Below, in pieces: positions 6,940 to 34,422 of a stretch of 64,000 nucleotides of DNA. Source of the stretch: Moraxella macacae 0408225 (GTDB lineage Bacteria; Pseudomonadota; Gammaproteobacteria; Pseudomonadales; Moraxellaceae); NCBI RefSeq assembly GCF_000320365.1, contig NZ_ANIN01000001.1, positions 248,001 to 312,000 on the forward strand. The letters run 5' to 3'. Positions within the stretch are counted from its first letter, which is position 1. Each line of letters opens with the position of its first letter. The notes under the pieces were generated by a model that was not told where the DNA came from, ran no database searches, and saw only the letters and a list, made by a program, of their open reading frames with translations. Position numbers and translations under genes: made by a program.

Positions 6940-8763
6940 ATGGCCTTAACTTATAAAGCTCCGCTGCGCGACATTCGTTTTTTAATCAACGAAGTGTTTA
7001 ATTACCCAGAGCATTACAAAACCCTAAAATCAGGTGAAAATGCCGATCCTGAAACTGTGGATATGATTTTAGAAAACGTGGCTGATTTTTCCACAAATGT
7101 GCTGTTGCCTTTGTATCAATCAGGTGATGCCGAGGGCTGTCATTTTGATAACGGTGAAGTTACCACACCAAAAGGCTTTAAAGAAGCCTATAACATGTTT
7201 ATTGAAACAGGTTATCAAGGCATGGGTTATCCTGAAAAATTTGGCGGATCGCACATGCCTGCATCGCTAAATTTGATTAAATCTGAAATCATTTCAACCG
7301 CCAACTGGTCATTTCAGATGTATCCTGGTTTATCGCTTGGTTGTATGAACACCATCATGCAATACGGTTCGCAAGAACAAAAAGACAAATATATGCCAAA
7401 ATTGGTAGAGGGTGCTTGGTCGGGCACGATGTGTTTGACTGAAGCACAATGTGGCACGGATTTGGGACAAGTCAAAACCAAAGCCATTCCAAATGATGAC
7501 GGCAGTTATGCACTGACAGGCACAAAAATCTTTATCTCGGCAGGCGAGCATGATTTGACCGAAAATATCATTCACATTGTACTGGCAAAATTACCCAACG
7601 CCCCTGAAGGCACAAAGGGCATCTCACTGTTTATCGTACCAAAATTTTTGGTAAATGATGACGGTTCGATCGGCGAACGCAATGCGGTAACGTGCGGTTC
7701 GATCGAACACAAAATGGGGATTAAGGCTTCAGCGACTGCTGTGTTAAATTTTGACAACGCGAAAGGTTATTTGATTGGAGAACCACACAAAGGCTTAAAA
7801 GCCATGTTCACTTTTATGAATACCGCTCGTGTTGGCACTGGCATTCAAGGTCTGGCTCATATGGAATTAGCCTTTCAAAACAGTCTACCTTATGCCAAAG
7901 AACGTCGCTCTATGCGTGCATTATCAGGCAAAAAAGAACCAAACCAAGCCGGTGATGCAATTATTTATCATGCCGATGTTGCCAGAATGCTATTAACTCA
8001 AAAAGCTTTTAGCGAGGGAGCACGCTCGATGATTTGTCATGCTGGGCGTTATGCAGATAAAATGACCGAGGCCAGTTTTGCAGGCGATCACGAAAACTTT
8101 GAAAAATGGGACGAAAAATTAGGCTTTTACACGCCCGTGCTAAAAGGATTTTTAACAGAATTAAGCATTGAAAGCACCAAACATGCCATGCAAATTTTTG
8201 GTGGACATGGCTATATCAATGAATGGGGCATGGAGCAAATTGCCCGTGATGCACGTATTTCTACCCTTTATGAGGGCACAACAGGCGTGCAAGCCTTGGA
8301 TTTGTTAGGGCGTAAAGTGCTGCTCCAATCCAAAGGCAAGGTGGTATTGGATTATACCGCCAACATCATGCGTTGGTGCAGTGAGTACGCACTTGATAAA
8401 GAAATGCGTAAATACGCTTGGGCGTTAACCAAATATTGTGCCGAATGGAATACCCTAACCGCACGCATCATGCTCACTGCACGCAAAGATCGCGACATCG
8501 TCTCAGCCGCCTCAGATGACTATCTTATGTATTCAGGCTATGTCATGATGGCATATCACTGGGCAAGAATGGCCGCCGTTGCTCACGATAAACTCAAAAA
8601 AGGCAATGGCAAAGAAACCAAAGCATTTTATCAAGCCAAAATCAAAACCGCCGAGTTTTATTTTGAAAAACTGCTACCCAGAGCATCAGGATTGTCCGAA
8701 AGCATGTTAACTTCAAGCGAAACCATGTCGCTTGATTTGGACAGCTATAGCTTTTTGGATTAA
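6940..8763 (+). CDS. Acyl-CoA dehydrogenase (FadE/DmdC type)
   Basis: 607 residues, the long form with an extra C-terminal domain found in fatty-acid and methylmercaptopropionyl-CoA (DmdC-like) dehydrogenases. It oxidises acyl-CoA to trans-2-enoyl-CoA using FAD and passes electrons to ETF. Visible are the FAD/substrate loop CLTEAQCGTDLGQVKT, GTKIFISAGEHD, and TLYEGTTGVQALDLLGRK near residue 445, which carries the catalytic Glu. ATG at 6940 has AAGGAT upstream. Single gene with its own terminator at 8866-8914. The chain-length preference cannot be read; DmdC activity itself is not implied. Confidence 0.9.
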   Translation: MALTYKAPLRDIRFLINEVFNYPEHYKTLKSGENADPETVDMILENVADFSTNVLLPLYQSGDAEGCHFDNGEVTTPKGFKEAYNMFIETGYQGMGYPEKFGGSHMPASLNLIKSEIISTANWSFQMYPGLSLGCMNTIMQYGSQEQKDKYMPKLVEGAWSGTMCLTEAQCGTDLGQVKTKAIPNDDGSYALTGTKIFISAGEHDLTENIIHIVLAKLPNAPEGTKGISLFIVPKFLVNDDGSIGERNAVTCGSIEHKMGIKASATAVLNFDNAKGYLIGEPHKGLKAMFTFMNTARVGTGIQGLAHMELAFQNSLPYAKERRSMRALSGKKEPNQAGDAIIYHADVARMLLTQKAFSEGARSMICHAGRYADKMTEASFAGDHENFEKWDEKLGFYTPVLKGFLTELSIESTKHAMQIFGGHGYINEWGMEQIARDARISTLYEGTTGVQALDLLGRKVLLQSKGKVVLDYTANIMRWCSEYALDKEMRKYAWALTKYCAEWNTLTARIMLTARKDRDIVSAASDDYLMYSGYVMMAYHWARMAAVAHDKLKKGNGKETKAFYQAKIKTAEFYFEKLLPRASGLSESMLTSSETMSLDLDSYSFLD

Positions 8764-31011: not shown

Positions 31012-31069
31012 TTTTGATCTAAATTTGCAATTTACCAGTTTCATGTTTGGCAAAATCTAAAAAATAACA

Positions 31070-31102
31070 AAAACTATTAACACTTTGTTGGTAGTTTTTT
31101 TT
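31070..31102 (+). terminator. Terminator after the roadblock gene
   Basis: AAAACTATTAAC (31070-31081) pairs with GTTGGTAGTTTT (31087-31098) with two G-T wobbles and an ACTTT loop; the T-run continues to 31102. It separates the GTPase group from the cold-shock/Cys-rich gene. Confidence 0.7.
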
Positions 31103-31189
31103 ATGAAGTTTGTTATGAAGTTTTTCAAACAGGCACGCAATGCATAAAATGCATAAAAATAATTGATCACGTTAAATTTTAGGGCTTTT

Positions 31190-33652
31190 ATGAAAGAAAC
31201 AAAATATATCGGTTGGGTGGATTGGTTTATGACTGCAGATTATAAACCTTTTGGCTTTATTAAATATCACGATAACAAAAAAGAACAATCGGTATTCTTT
31301 CATCAAAATCAAATCATGTGCCAAAGTTTGGTTAAGGTTGGTAAATTTACAGAAAATCAGGTCGTTGTGTTTTGCATTCGTAAATCAGCCAAACAAAAAG
31401 ACAAATTCGAGGCATACGATGTCTTATTATTAGAAGATGAAAAAAACACGCTGTGGCTTGTGTCGCAATTTATTCATCTGTTGACAAATAACATTCATAG
31501 CCCACCTTTCACCCAACTGACAAATTTTTTTAGCAACAAATTAACTCAAACGCCCGCGATCAAACATGTGGTTGTTGATAAATTGCTTTTGATATTTAGC
31601 GGTGATTATAGCAACGCGGTTTTAACAAACATTCTGCAAACCTTTCCAACAATCATAAATCAAGATCAAAAATTACGCGATGCCTTAATTAATAATCTAC
31701 TAAATCAATTACAACAACATAAAACCTCGCTAAAATCCATTGTTGCTGATTTAAAAAACCATTCTGTTGACACAGTGTATAAAAATTTTATCCAAAGTGT
31801 TATGCAACTGGTTAAAACAAGCCAATTGCAGTTTAAACAAATGCAAGATATTGCATCTTTTATAGCAGCTTTAACCGATTTGTCCTTAGACGAAGCAGAT
31901 GAAGCCATAAACAGTTGTTTTGACAATACAGATTTTGACACTTTAACCAAATTATTACAACAAGACAATTTGTCTGCGAAACTAAGCCCAGAAAATTACC
32001 AATATATTTTAAACAATATTGTTAAACATACTAATTTTAATCAGTTTATTAATGATAAAACCCAAGTAGTTAGCTTTTTTAGATCGGCAACACAAAAAAA
32101 GCTACAGTCTCAATTGCCAAACATTGTGCCAATGCTTGATGATAGCACAAAACTGCACTTATGGCTCCATGATATGCTTGATGATTTAAACGTTAATTTT
32201 ACGTTGGATTTGGATACTTATGTGCCTTTGGTTAATCAATTAAACTTAAAATCCAAACAATTGTTTATAAAGAAAATCTTTTATGACATATATTGCAAGC
32301 GTTTGCAGATTGATTTAGACGCCATCTTACAGATCAATATTGACGATTATTCAACCATGGTTTTGTTTAAACTACTTAAGACAATTTCCACCGAGCAAAA
32401 ACTCAATAAACACACGCTAAAATACGATTTATTGCAGGCAATTTCACAAACAGATTTAGCCAACCATGCAAGTGATAAGTTGCATCTGAACGGCTATTTT
32501 AATCTTTGTACTGGTAGAGTGATTGAAGTACATAGAGATTCCAACACAACCTATTATAAAAGCGATCAGTTTGTCAAAGAGGGCAAGTTAATTGAAAATA
32601 CACAGTATTTTTATATCAAAGTCAGTCATAAAAAGCCCGATGACGAGCGTATTATTTGTGAGGGGCAATTATCCGTTAAAGATGGCAAGGCAAATCTTTC
32701 TACTGGAAAAAGTAACTTTTGGTGGTGCAGAAACAAACAATGCTTTCAACATGCCAGAACCTATTGCAACAACACGCACAACTGGCAAAATTACACCTTG
32801 TTAGATTTTTTAGGGATTTTAAATATTAACTTTAATGATGATGAAATTGGTTTGTTATATAGCGTTGTCAATTATGTTAATAAATTTTTAAAACACTTAA
32901 ACTGTCGCAGCTGCGGTAAACTGCTAAAGGCTAATGGCAATTCAAATTACACCTATTACAGAGTGAGCAGTTTTTCGTGCACCAATGACAACTGTCTAAA
33001 TCCTGATAAAGATGTGTATTTATCGCATTGCTCCAACGGTTCTCGTTGTGATGGGGTGATAGACAGTCGTAAAAGTGTAAAATGCAACAATGGCTTTATC
33101 ATTTGCACCCAATGCTTTGCGTGTTGTGATACCAAAAGATTAACTGACAGAAATCAGTACAGATCAATAAACCAATTAAACAAAGTACCATGGAAAGAGC
33201 CACACAGAGGCATGAGCATCTTATGCCCAAAATGTGGCAATCATTTCAAATACTGTGATATTCTTGACAAACAAGCCAAACACAAAAAAATCGTGCAACT
33301 TTTAAAAAACCTATATCATGACGGTACGCCCCCAGCTCAAAATTTGGTTGGCAATATGGGCGTTTATCAAAATAGCCAACTGCATTGGTTTGTGGTTTAT
33401 CAACGCCATTTGTCGCGCAATGAGTTTTTAAATACCTTGACAGAATGGCAATCGGTTGGTTTTGAAATTACCGATTTTCCCGAAGATTTAACCCGATCTT
33501 ATTATAGAGTGATAGAGCCACGTGAATTCCAGTTGACCCAGGTAACGTTTTTTAGTTGCACAAAATGCAATGCCACTTATGATTACACACAAGATCACAT
33601 GAAATATACAGCCATTGGATATTGGCATTTTTCAAAATTTAATCATATTTAA
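31190..33652 (+). CDS. Large cold-shock-domain protein with multiple Cys clusters
   Basis: 820 residues from ATG 31190 (AGGG at 31181-31184); an upstream TTG would add nine. Residues about 6-82 look like a divergent cold-shock domain: GWVDWF at 8-13, the RNP1-like KPFGFIKY at 19-26 and RNP2-like SVFFH at 34-38. A long helical, Gln/Asn/Leu-rich middle (90-480) shows no known catalytic motif. The last third carries Cys pairs that look like zinc ribbons: WWCRNKQC (near 510), CRSC (571), CTNDNC (597), CSNGSRC (615), a CxxC cluster (631-645), CPKC (678) and CTKC (790). Only 29 of 120 bases in 31981-32100 are G or C, far below its neighbours, so it is probably acquired. I do not recognise the full architecture; RNA binding is inferred from the first domain. 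Confidence 0.85.
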   Translation: MKETKYIGWVDWFMTADYKPFGFIKYHDNKKEQSVFFHQNQIMCQSLVKVGKFTENQVVVFCIRKSAKQKDKFEAYDVLLLEDEKNTLWLVSQFIHLLTNNIHSPPFTQLTNFFSNKLTQTPAIKHVVVDKLLLIFSGDYSNAVLTNILQTFPTIINQDQKLRDALINNLLNQLQQHKTSLKSIVADLKNHSVDTVYKNFIQSVMQLVKTSQLQFKQMQDIASFIAALTDLSLDEADEAINSCFDNTDFDTLTKLLQQDNLSAKLSPENYQYILNNIVKHTNFNQFINDKTQVVSFFRSATQKKLQSQLPNIVPMLDDSTKLHLWLHDMLDDLNVNFTLDLDTYVPLVNQLNLKSKQLFIKKIFYDIYCKRLQIDLDAILQINIDDYSTMVLFKLLKTISTEQKLNKHTLKYDLLQAISQTDLANHASDKLHLNGYFNLCTGRVIEVHRDSNTTYYKSDQFVKEGKLIENTQYFYIKVSHKKPDDERIICEGQLSVKDGKANLSTGKSNFWWCRNKQCFQHARTYCNNTHNWQNYTLLDFLGILNINFNDDEIGLLYSVVNYVNKFLKHLNCRSCGKLLKANGNSNYTYYRVSSFSCTNDNCLNPDKDVYLSHCSNGSRCDGVIDSRKSVKCNNGFIICTQCFACCDTKRLTDRNQYRSINQLNKVPWKEPHRGMSILCPKCGNHFKYCDILDKQAKHKKIVQLLKNLYHDGTPPAQNLVGNMGVYQNSQLHWFVVYQRHLSRNEFLNTLTEWQSVGFEITDFPEDLTRSYYRVIEPREFQLTQVTFFSCTKCNATYDYTQDHMKYTAIGYWHFSKFNHI

Positions 33653-33688: not shown

Positions 33689-34267
33689 CTAAAAAGCAAA
33701 CTGTTGGTTTGCCTGATTTTGGCAAGTTGTCATCACAACACGGTTGTTTTGGTTAACGGTTAAACATTTGCCCGTTAATTGGTTACGCAATTGCTTGCCA
33801 TCAGCATACCATTTTTGGTTTAATTTGCCATGACACTGGTGCAAAATCACAGACGCACCATCATCTTTACTCTCGCCTGCAACATCAAGACATTTGTCCT
33901 GTTGTTGAATGGTTTGATCGGCTTTGACACCAAACAACTGATTTGCTTTGCCATGACAGTGGTGTGCAATCAAGGTTTTATTGTCATCACCATGCACATC
34001 AAGGCATTGGTTGTTATGATTTAGCCGAATTAAACCAACAGCATTTGACCCAAAATTTGACATAGATAAATTTGACATAGATTTTGTCGATGCATTTGGC
34101 AACAAAATCAGCATAGGTTCTGCTTTTTCAATAACAATTTCTTCACGAGCGGTTGATGGTGGGTTTATAACAACAGCCTTGTTGCTTATTTTTGCCTCTG
34201 TTGACAAATTGGCACAACCTGTTAGGATAATTGTAGCAAATACACCACAAAATGCGAAACGTTGCAT
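33689..34267 (-). CDS. Ricin-type beta-trefoil lectin lipoprotein
   Basis: 192 residues from ATG 34267 (AGAGGTG upstream); the frame is open 16 codons further back. Signal peptide with lipobox ILTGC, Cys18. A short linker follows, then a ricin B-type trefoil: three repeats with CLDVHG, CLDVAGE and CLTVN, and QxW-type words (NQLFG, NQKWY, NQQFA). Such domains bind sugars or cap other enzymes; here the lectin is the whole mature protein. It could bind surface or host glycans. Transcribed toward the convergent cold-shock gene, whose stop lies 36 bases away. Confidence 0.82.
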   Translation of the reverse strand: MQRFAFCGVFATIILTGCANLSTEAKISNKAVVINPPSTAREEIVIEKAEPMLILLPNASTKSMSNLSMSNFGSNAVGLIRLNHNNQCLDVHGDDNKTLIAHHCHGKANQLFGVKADQTIQQQDKCLDVAGESKDDGASVILHQCHGKLNQKWYADGKQLRNQLTGKCLTVNQNNRVVMTTCQNQANQQFAF

Positions 34268-34422
34268 AAAACACCTCTGGCAAACTAATAAAAAACAGCA
34301 ATAAAAAAACGGCAATAAAAAAATAGCATTTTACACTTAATTTGTTACCGTTTTATAAGTTTTTTGTTGTTGATATTGAAGTTTATGTTAATAAAACACA
34401 TATGAATGCAGTGCATATTGAT

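Follow-up and report, generated by a model that had tools for sequence, protein, structure and literature searches.

What does a large protein that joins a cold-shock domain (CSD) to a cysteine-rich tail do in a Moraxella genome, and why does its gene stand alone there? The gene in question lies in a 64,000-nucleotide stretch of Moraxella macacae 0408225 (contig NZ_ANIN01000001.1, positions 248,001 to 312,000), referred to here as the window, and a first-pass annotation made from the sequence alone had proposed that it is an acquired single-gene system, possibly an RNA-sensing or RNA-binding defence or stress factor. We could confirm the gene itself, which runs from an ATG at 31190 to a stop at 33652 (Table 1), with a TTG at 31163 upstream of that ATG as an alternative in-frame start. 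When the window ORFs that reach 150 amino acids and do not overlap are ranked by G+C content (n = 47), this gene comes lowest with 34.0 %, the other 46 having a mean of 41.8 (sd 2.9). The gene is thus AT-rich as claimed but not to the 24 % first given (29 of 120 bases), a figure that reflected sampling since the whole gene measures 34.0 %. A gap of 178 bp to the upstream gene, a terminator-like hairpin following that gene and a convergent neighbour only 36 bp downstream all bore out the description of the gene as monocistronic and isolated. A consensus scan returned promoter- and terminator-like sites in about the number expected by chance, which neither backs nor opposes isolation. Rfam models found nothing between 27000 and 38000, a tRNA scan of the whole window was likewise empty and a repeat scan around the gene revealed no convincing duplication.

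Table 1. Coordinates of the gene, the regions of its protein and the upstream hairpin, in window positions
Feature	Coordinates	Strand	Basis or remark
Whole coding sequence	31190..33652	+	820 aa; ORF list and translation, start ATG preferred
Cold-shock (OB-fold) domain, residues 8-78	31211..31423	+	Pfam PF00313
Middle region, residues 86-439	31445..32506	+	Without known domain; read as helical in the first-pass annotation; Pfam/NCBIfam matches sub-threshold only
Cysteine-rich domain core, residues 440-696	32507..33277	+	Invariant Cys; profile-profile matches
Insert of about 90 residues splitting the last putative zinc ribbon	33278..33556	+	Among aligned members, Moraxellaceae only
C790-x2-C793, completing the last putative zinc ribbon	33557..33568	+	Invariant in the 16-member alignment
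Terminator-like hairpin and T run, 3′ of the upstream gene	31064..31104	+	Fold -13.4 kcal/mol, z -3.26

The PF00313 match (E 1.9e-7) scored 31.3 bits against a curated cut-off of 27 and the motifs GWVDWF, FGFI and VFFH are all present in the sequence, in agreement with the diverged cold-shock domain that had been proposed. This region aligns with the N-termini of the Psychrobacter and Klebsiella relatives and with that of a Bacteroidota relative, L112, described below. The CSD was the sole Pfam domain above cut-off in the window protein, and NCBIfam returned only sub-threshold Csp and other models, with CspE at 19.7 bits against a cut-off of 133. No PADLOC model matched the window protein or its L022 and L024 relatives, and no PDB entry matched the whole window protein at E values up to 10, while the first 87 residues gave weak cold-shock/Y-box matches (best E 0.085). 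With no full-length match to a characterised family from Pfam, NCBIfam, PADLOC or PDB, the architecture is as unfamiliar as the first-pass annotation had found it. The protein contains 25 cysteines, of which 21 fall within the C-terminal 400 residues, and the claim of at least seven CxxC-like pairs agrees with our count of five CxxC and two CxxxxC. We recognised no catalytic motif or effector fold in it. Several weak matches were set aside, among them the Pfam models CbeA antitoxin (0.0034), Rpb5_C (0.033) and Pex19 (0.068) in the middle and tail, all below cut-off and each in one of the 16 aligned family members. Weak IBR, DZR and zinc-ribbon matches were seen in one or two of the 16 and no kinship was taken from them, and PDB matches to PCF11 and zinc-finger proteins (E 0.027 and worse) were not taken as relations.

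Judged from profile comparisons, the cysteine-rich domain of about 200 residues is new and spans Moraxellaceae, Enterobacteriaceae and Bacteroidota. The region common to distant relatives corresponds to about residues 489-696 of the window protein, with profile-profile matches to twelve Bacteroidota members at E 9.1e-30 and to the enterobacterial form at E 1e-12, and the enterobacterial and Bacteroidota profiles also match each other (1.3e-12). An alignment of 16 members showed as invariant, among others and in the numbering of the window protein, C440, C490, C513, C518, C572, C575, C597, C602, C614, C632, C639, C642, C645, C646, H672, C679, C682, C790 and C793 together with D625 and R627. The family motif IDxR...C(x6)CxxCxxCC and the conserved cysteine array are thus present in the window protein, and the array may bind zinc at four or five sites. 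Longer forms of 741-932 aa make up twelve of the 16 and are Bacteroidota by record title, with the exception of L025, which is recorded as a Roseburia MAG, yet its genome (G1100) was grouped in the family of the Prevotella genome G1098. Two others are Flavobacteria-type proteins of about 500 aa without the N-terminal half, and the Klebsiella form (620 aa) stops after the CxxCxxCC motif and so lacks the last ribbon.

Pfam detects the CSD in only two of the 16 aligned members, the window protein included, so this domain is not essential to the family. It is nonetheless joined to the cysteine-rich domain in three distant groups, namely Moraxellaceae, where the call rests on Pfam, Klebsiella/E. 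coli, where it rests on the RefSeq name and alignment, and L112, a 1187-aa protein whose CSD is called by alignment and a weak PDB cold-shock match (E 0.053) and whose genome belongs to the family of Prevotella G1098. An N-terminal CSD in three groups would make single-stranded nucleic acid a plausible trigger or target, and it is the CSD alone that points to RNA sensing or binding by the window protein. The family appears to be undescribed in the open-access literature searched.

The gene has a very uneven distribution. It was present in one of six genomes of the genus, the source genome included, and within the taxonomic family full-length relatives were found in three of 348 genomes, those being the source genome and two of the genus Psychrobacter (G335, the same as locus L016, from Psychrobacter urativorans, and G244), whose proteins of 804-806 aa share 37-41 % identity with it. 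Searching with the Cys-domain profile recovered the source genome and one doubtful match from a class sample of 369 genomes, and the source genome and one Klebsiella-type relative (G952, a copy 98 % identical to the Klebsiella/E. coli type) from a phylum sample of 398. In the family of Prevotella G1098, 8 of 349 genomes had matches, four of them already counted and one a fragment. A plain protein scan of genome and viral contigs with the window protein identified no relative, and the Klebsiella protein found none among viral contigs. Phage records gave no match. Three candidates were dropped: G132 (E 0.003, a short broken frame with three stops), G568 (58 of 209 positions, inside a 3798-aa frame) and G1168 (a 75-aa frame containing stops).

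At a coverage of at least 80 % the Klebsiella-type copy was found in 198 of 5426 complete E. coli genomes. Among 72,556 plasmid records 131 had it at that coverage; almost all of these are from Klebsiella, and since their copies are nearly identical they do not count as independent. Any match at all was present in 805 E. coli genomes, those 198 among them, and in a spread of 40 the weaker matches were either yecA matches of 50-56 bases or 3′ pieces of 210 bases. Some E. coli retain just these last 210 bases of the CSD gene, for example at NZ_AP023226.1:1982571-1982780, and such remnants suggest cassette replacement within the hsd locus.

The insertion site also varies between sister genomes. 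We take the immediate neighbours of the window gene to be roadblock-type and lectin-type genes, the convergent one (33689-34315, minus strand) presumably a ricin-type lectin judged from its repeats; in G002 only residues 92-208 of the latter match. There the same flanks enclose what appear to us to be TonB-receptor and PepSY-type genes in place of the window gene. In G001 and G005 about 150 and 470 bp separate glyA from the presumed roadblock-type gene, the upstream flank. G003 and G004 carry genes that we read as histidine-kinase-type and response-regulator-type at the site, and their match to the roadblock-type gene is limited to its first 41 residues. As its content differs between sister genomes the site is a variable one, which does not by itself make it a defence island. 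G002 further contains a 70-bp repeat (96 %) at L043:3697-3766 and 8612-8681, 4.9 kb apart, that includes the end of the roadblock-type gene and brackets the TonB-receptor/PepSY-type genes, resembling an insertion footprint. Absence from the five other genus genomes searched, a patchy presence in the family, low G+C content and a variable site all agree with the proposal of an acquired gene and differ from a conserved, genus-wide presence with normal composition, the finding named beforehand as speaking against it. The gene has apparently spread horizontally.

Both Psychrobacter-group copies lie at a site between an FtsX-type permease and an aminotransferase, a hotspot of variable content where known defence genes occur among the cargo. 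In G244 (L012:8355-10887) the CSD gene is the only evident cargo; in G335 only the left flank is seen, the contig ending just past the gene. Sixty genomes were searched with each flank, of which 51 had both on one contig and 9 on separate contigs, and the flanks were in the other order in 6 of the 51. Among the remaining 45, 8 sites were empty (117-138 bp) and 37 held 1.2-5 kb. For 76 cargo ORFs of at least 110 aa, taken from the 36 filled loci other than G244, the Pfam matches listed include GmrSD_N (4), 2-hydroxyacid dehydrogenase (3), reverse transcriptase (2), kinase (2) and AAA_21 (2), with one each of ThsA macro, a ScaI-type enzyme, RloB and thymidylate kinase. When the largest ORF per locus was compared with PADLOC in a small sample (n = 20; L058-L080 minus the duplicates L064, L068 and L076), 8 matched at E 1e-10 or better, including ThsA (Thoeris), AbiLi, PtuA/PDC-M01A, PD-T4-6 kinase, reverse transcriptase and HEC-05. 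One of 10 control ORFs did so (an RT-protease model), these being picked from 16 listed in the window and hence from another genus. The other 12 sampled hotspot ORFs lacked a PADLOC match and the cargo includes ordinary enzymes, the 2-hydroxyacid dehydrogenases and the thymidylate kinase, both of which count against a defence reading.

In many bacteria cold-shock domains act as RNA chaperones or regulators, and the lack of a recognised effector fold would also suit a protein that is not a defence effector at all but an RNA-binding regulator or a stress (cold, starvation) factor of mobile islands. We consider this rather unlikely given the recurrent link to restriction genes and a defence hotspot, and a distribution as patchy as that described above.

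To survey gene neighbourhoods we compared 22 loci (the window, G335/L016, G244, Klebsiella/E. coli, L007, L017-L030 and L112-L114), after folding L031 into L022, L016 into G335 and G952 into the Klebsiella/E. coli type. Eight were of restriction/PADLOC type, one had a partial Abi_2 gene, two were hotspot loci, three had of these only a WYL gene and eight had none of them. Type I restriction-modification (R-M) genes were found at five loci, Klebsiella/E. coli, L007, L022, L019 and L023. The order in the one Klebsiella and one E. coli record viewed is hsdM-hsdS-YecA-CSD-hsdR, and at the other four the gene for the cysteine-rich protein (Cys gene) lies immediately 3′ of the hsd genes. The R subunit of L019 was confirmed by a PDB match and that of L023 assigned by its near-identical start and length, HsdS of L023 being assigned by position; an extra 388-aa gene without a PDB match lies between the HsdS and R subunit genes of L023. 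At L018 the Cys gene is 2.6 kb downstream of HmaB/HmaC-like genes with small ORFs between. L027 combines a WYL gene, an AAA_15 ATPase with NsnB/AriA-like PADLOC matches and a 343-aa partner, and at L113 a methylase, 58 % identical to the PADLOC type II methylase of hotspot locus L074, and its partner ORF are one gene away from the Cys gene. L112 adjoins a partial Abi_2 gene (L112:8202-8585, plus strand) covering 82 of 184 model positions at 75 bits against a cut-off of 25.6, which came from one targeted search of that locus only after the motif was noticed. A full-length Abi_2 gene occurs elsewhere in the same genome.

Linkage to type I restriction raises two further explanations. The prrC gene is linked to type I R-M genes, and by analogy the family could consist of guard or back-up toxins ancestrally tied to type I restriction, silenced by the R-M complex and released when a phage blocks restriction, the stand-alone copies having lost their partner or interacting with it in trans. 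Two observations fit such a toxin: in the two enterobacterial records viewed the CSD gene sits inside the hsd operon, with hsdS on one side and hsdR on the other, and five of 22 loci have type I R-M operons. PrrC itself fits as well, being reported as a nuclease silenced by the linked type I R-M enzyme (PMC2610378). We nevertheless think it unlikely, as 17 of the 22 loci show no adjoining type I R-M, the window and G244 forms stand alone, and Pfam gives neither an ATPase nor an anticodon-nuclease match. The Cys gene is also co-directional with hsdMSR at the five loci, and zinc ribbons and OB folds often bind DNA, as would be expected of an accessory subunit that binds DNA and assists restriction enzymes in locating or dealing with foreign DNA, its CSD binding single strands at stalled or cut ends. 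With no restriction gene seen beside the window, G244 or L024/L025 copies, this last explanation seems improbable.

The WYL-only class comprises L024 and L025 (WYL, HATPase and receiver-like genes) and L114 (a convergent WYL gene), and a WYL gene also heads L007, L022, L019 and L023. In L022 and L007 the genes after it encode an AAA_15-type ATPase and a partner of 311-334 aa, with hsdMSR next. The order in L019 and L023 is an ORF (about 1010 aa) that matches both HsdM and the HATPase protein, a receiver-like ORF and then the hsd genes. The label receiver-like denotes a sequence motif alone, for which Pfam and PDB gave no confirmation. This arrangement, in which an ORF of about 1010 aa of the HsdM/histidine-kinase-type ATPase kind precedes a receiver-like gene and hsd genes, is recorded at L105:7156-10185 and L106:5453-8494 and may possibly represent a kinase-linked type I R-M system. 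Across L007, L019, L022, L023, L024, L025 and L027 the Cys protein is the sole constant part. It is not always encoded last, as close same-strand genes follow it in L022 and L007. The genes 3′ of it are ADP-ribosylglycohydrolase, NUDIX and exonuclease VII-like in L022 (10649-13858), and in L007 (10867-16996) are annotated C39 peptidase and Sir2.

No defence-type neighbour was recognised at 8 of the 22 loci (the window, L017, L020, L021, L026, L028, L029 and L030), a class in which the window's neighbours were judged by reading rather than by profile libraries, those of the other seven only by BLASTP against a set of 13 reference neighbour proteins, and the L017 and L028 contigs are just 6.3 and 3.5 kb long. 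The survey of homologues called for by the first-pass annotation therefore gave a divided answer, with defence-type context at the restriction/PADLOC-type loci and the hotspot and none recognised at these eight. The suggested defence role gains from the R-M, Hma-like and methylase loci of relatives and from the Psychrobacter-group hotspot but not from the window's own neighbours, and the term single-gene fits the window and two Psychrobacter-group copies but not several other relatives, which sit in operons.

Taken together, the patchy spread, the relatives in R-M operons, the hotspot cargo and the pairing of CSD and cysteine-rich domain in three distant groups speak for a defence reading, against which stand the eight loci, the window's among them, without a recognised defence neighbour. 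With that reservation, our leading though tentative explanation, whose probability we would put just short of even, is that the window gene was acquired horizontally and on its own encodes a candidate defence protein against phages or mobile elements, a member of an undescribed family that would act as a nucleic-acid effector. In this model the CSD and the putative zinc ribbons would bind nucleic acid that arises in the course of infection, RNA or single-stranded DNA being the likeliest, after which the protein would halt infection by acting on the bound nucleic acid or by arresting the cell. The domain architecture, the family with its patchy spread and the link to restriction systems and a defence hotspot are observed, while zinc binding, nucleic-acid binding, the role as effector and anti-phage activity are what we infer for the window protein. 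It is a candidate effector because the gene is alone in the window and G244 and because the genes preceding it in L024 and L025 (those for the WYL regulator, the histidine-kinase-type ATPase and the receiver-like protein) include no evident effector, and an effector acting on nucleic acid is favoured because the gene stands alone and a CSD occurs in three groups. Some operons hold other candidate effectors, namely the 343-aa partner in L027 and the products of the genes that follow the Cys gene on its strand in L022 and L007.

A broader version, possible but hardly probable, is a new modular immune family in which the cysteine-rich domain serves throughout as the effector. Where it is fused to a cold-shock RNA sensor, as in the window, the Psychrobacter group and L112, it would work by itself; in operons it would act downstream of a sensor half that can be exchanged, under a WYL regulator and with or without type I restriction. 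The sensor half would be either a histidine-kinase ATPase with a receiver-like protein or an AAA_15 ATPase with its partner. Overall, we rank the nucleic-acid effector first, followed by the restriction-guarded toxin, the regulator or stress factor and, lastly, the restriction accessory subunit.

If the favoured nucleic-acid effector reading is true, the protein that RefSeq names 'cold shock domain-containing protein' in those 198 E. coli genomes would be a so far unstudied part of bacterial immunity, and there would be type I restriction operons with a second layer directed at nucleic acid, as in prrC loci. With the E. coli copy the defence reading is open to direct test in laboratory strains.

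Among known systems, the CoCoNuT type IV restriction systems are described as having CSD-like OB folds and zinc ribbons and as predicted to target RNA (PMC11090510). The window protein likewise pairs a CSD with putative zinc ribbons, but by Pfam it lacks the McrB GTPase and McrC nuclease, and no sequence relation was seen. TOTE/TALON conflict systems are reported to contain TPR-CSD fusion proteins (PMC12458937) and so resemble the window protein in fusing a CSD to a further region. Pfam finds no TPR in the window protein, although a diverged helical repeat may escape its models, and no TATA-binding-protein or helicase gene was noticed on reading the neighbours of the window gene. PrrC and RloC (PMC2610378) are similar in that a single effector gene accompanies type I R-M genes at some loci, and RloC responds to zinc, but neither Pfam nor PADLOC matched the window protein to an ABC ATPase or an anticodon nuclease. 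CspA-type Csp proteins are small, single-domain proteins of about 70 aa, in contrast to the 820 aa of the window protein, which is far below the CspE cut-off. One P. aeruginosa element is reported to carry a type I R-M system together with a protein named 'cold shock domain-containing protein', neither described further there (PMC8287167). The protein of Klebsiella plasmids and E. coli (WP_227542987.1, WP_021536936.1), known by its RefSeq name only in records that assign no function, has the same N-terminal CSD, middle region and C-terminal cysteine-rich domain as the window protein, and differs from it in its length of 620 aa, in having neither the Moraxellaceae insert nor the last putative zinc ribbon, and in lying between hsdS and hsdR in the records viewed.
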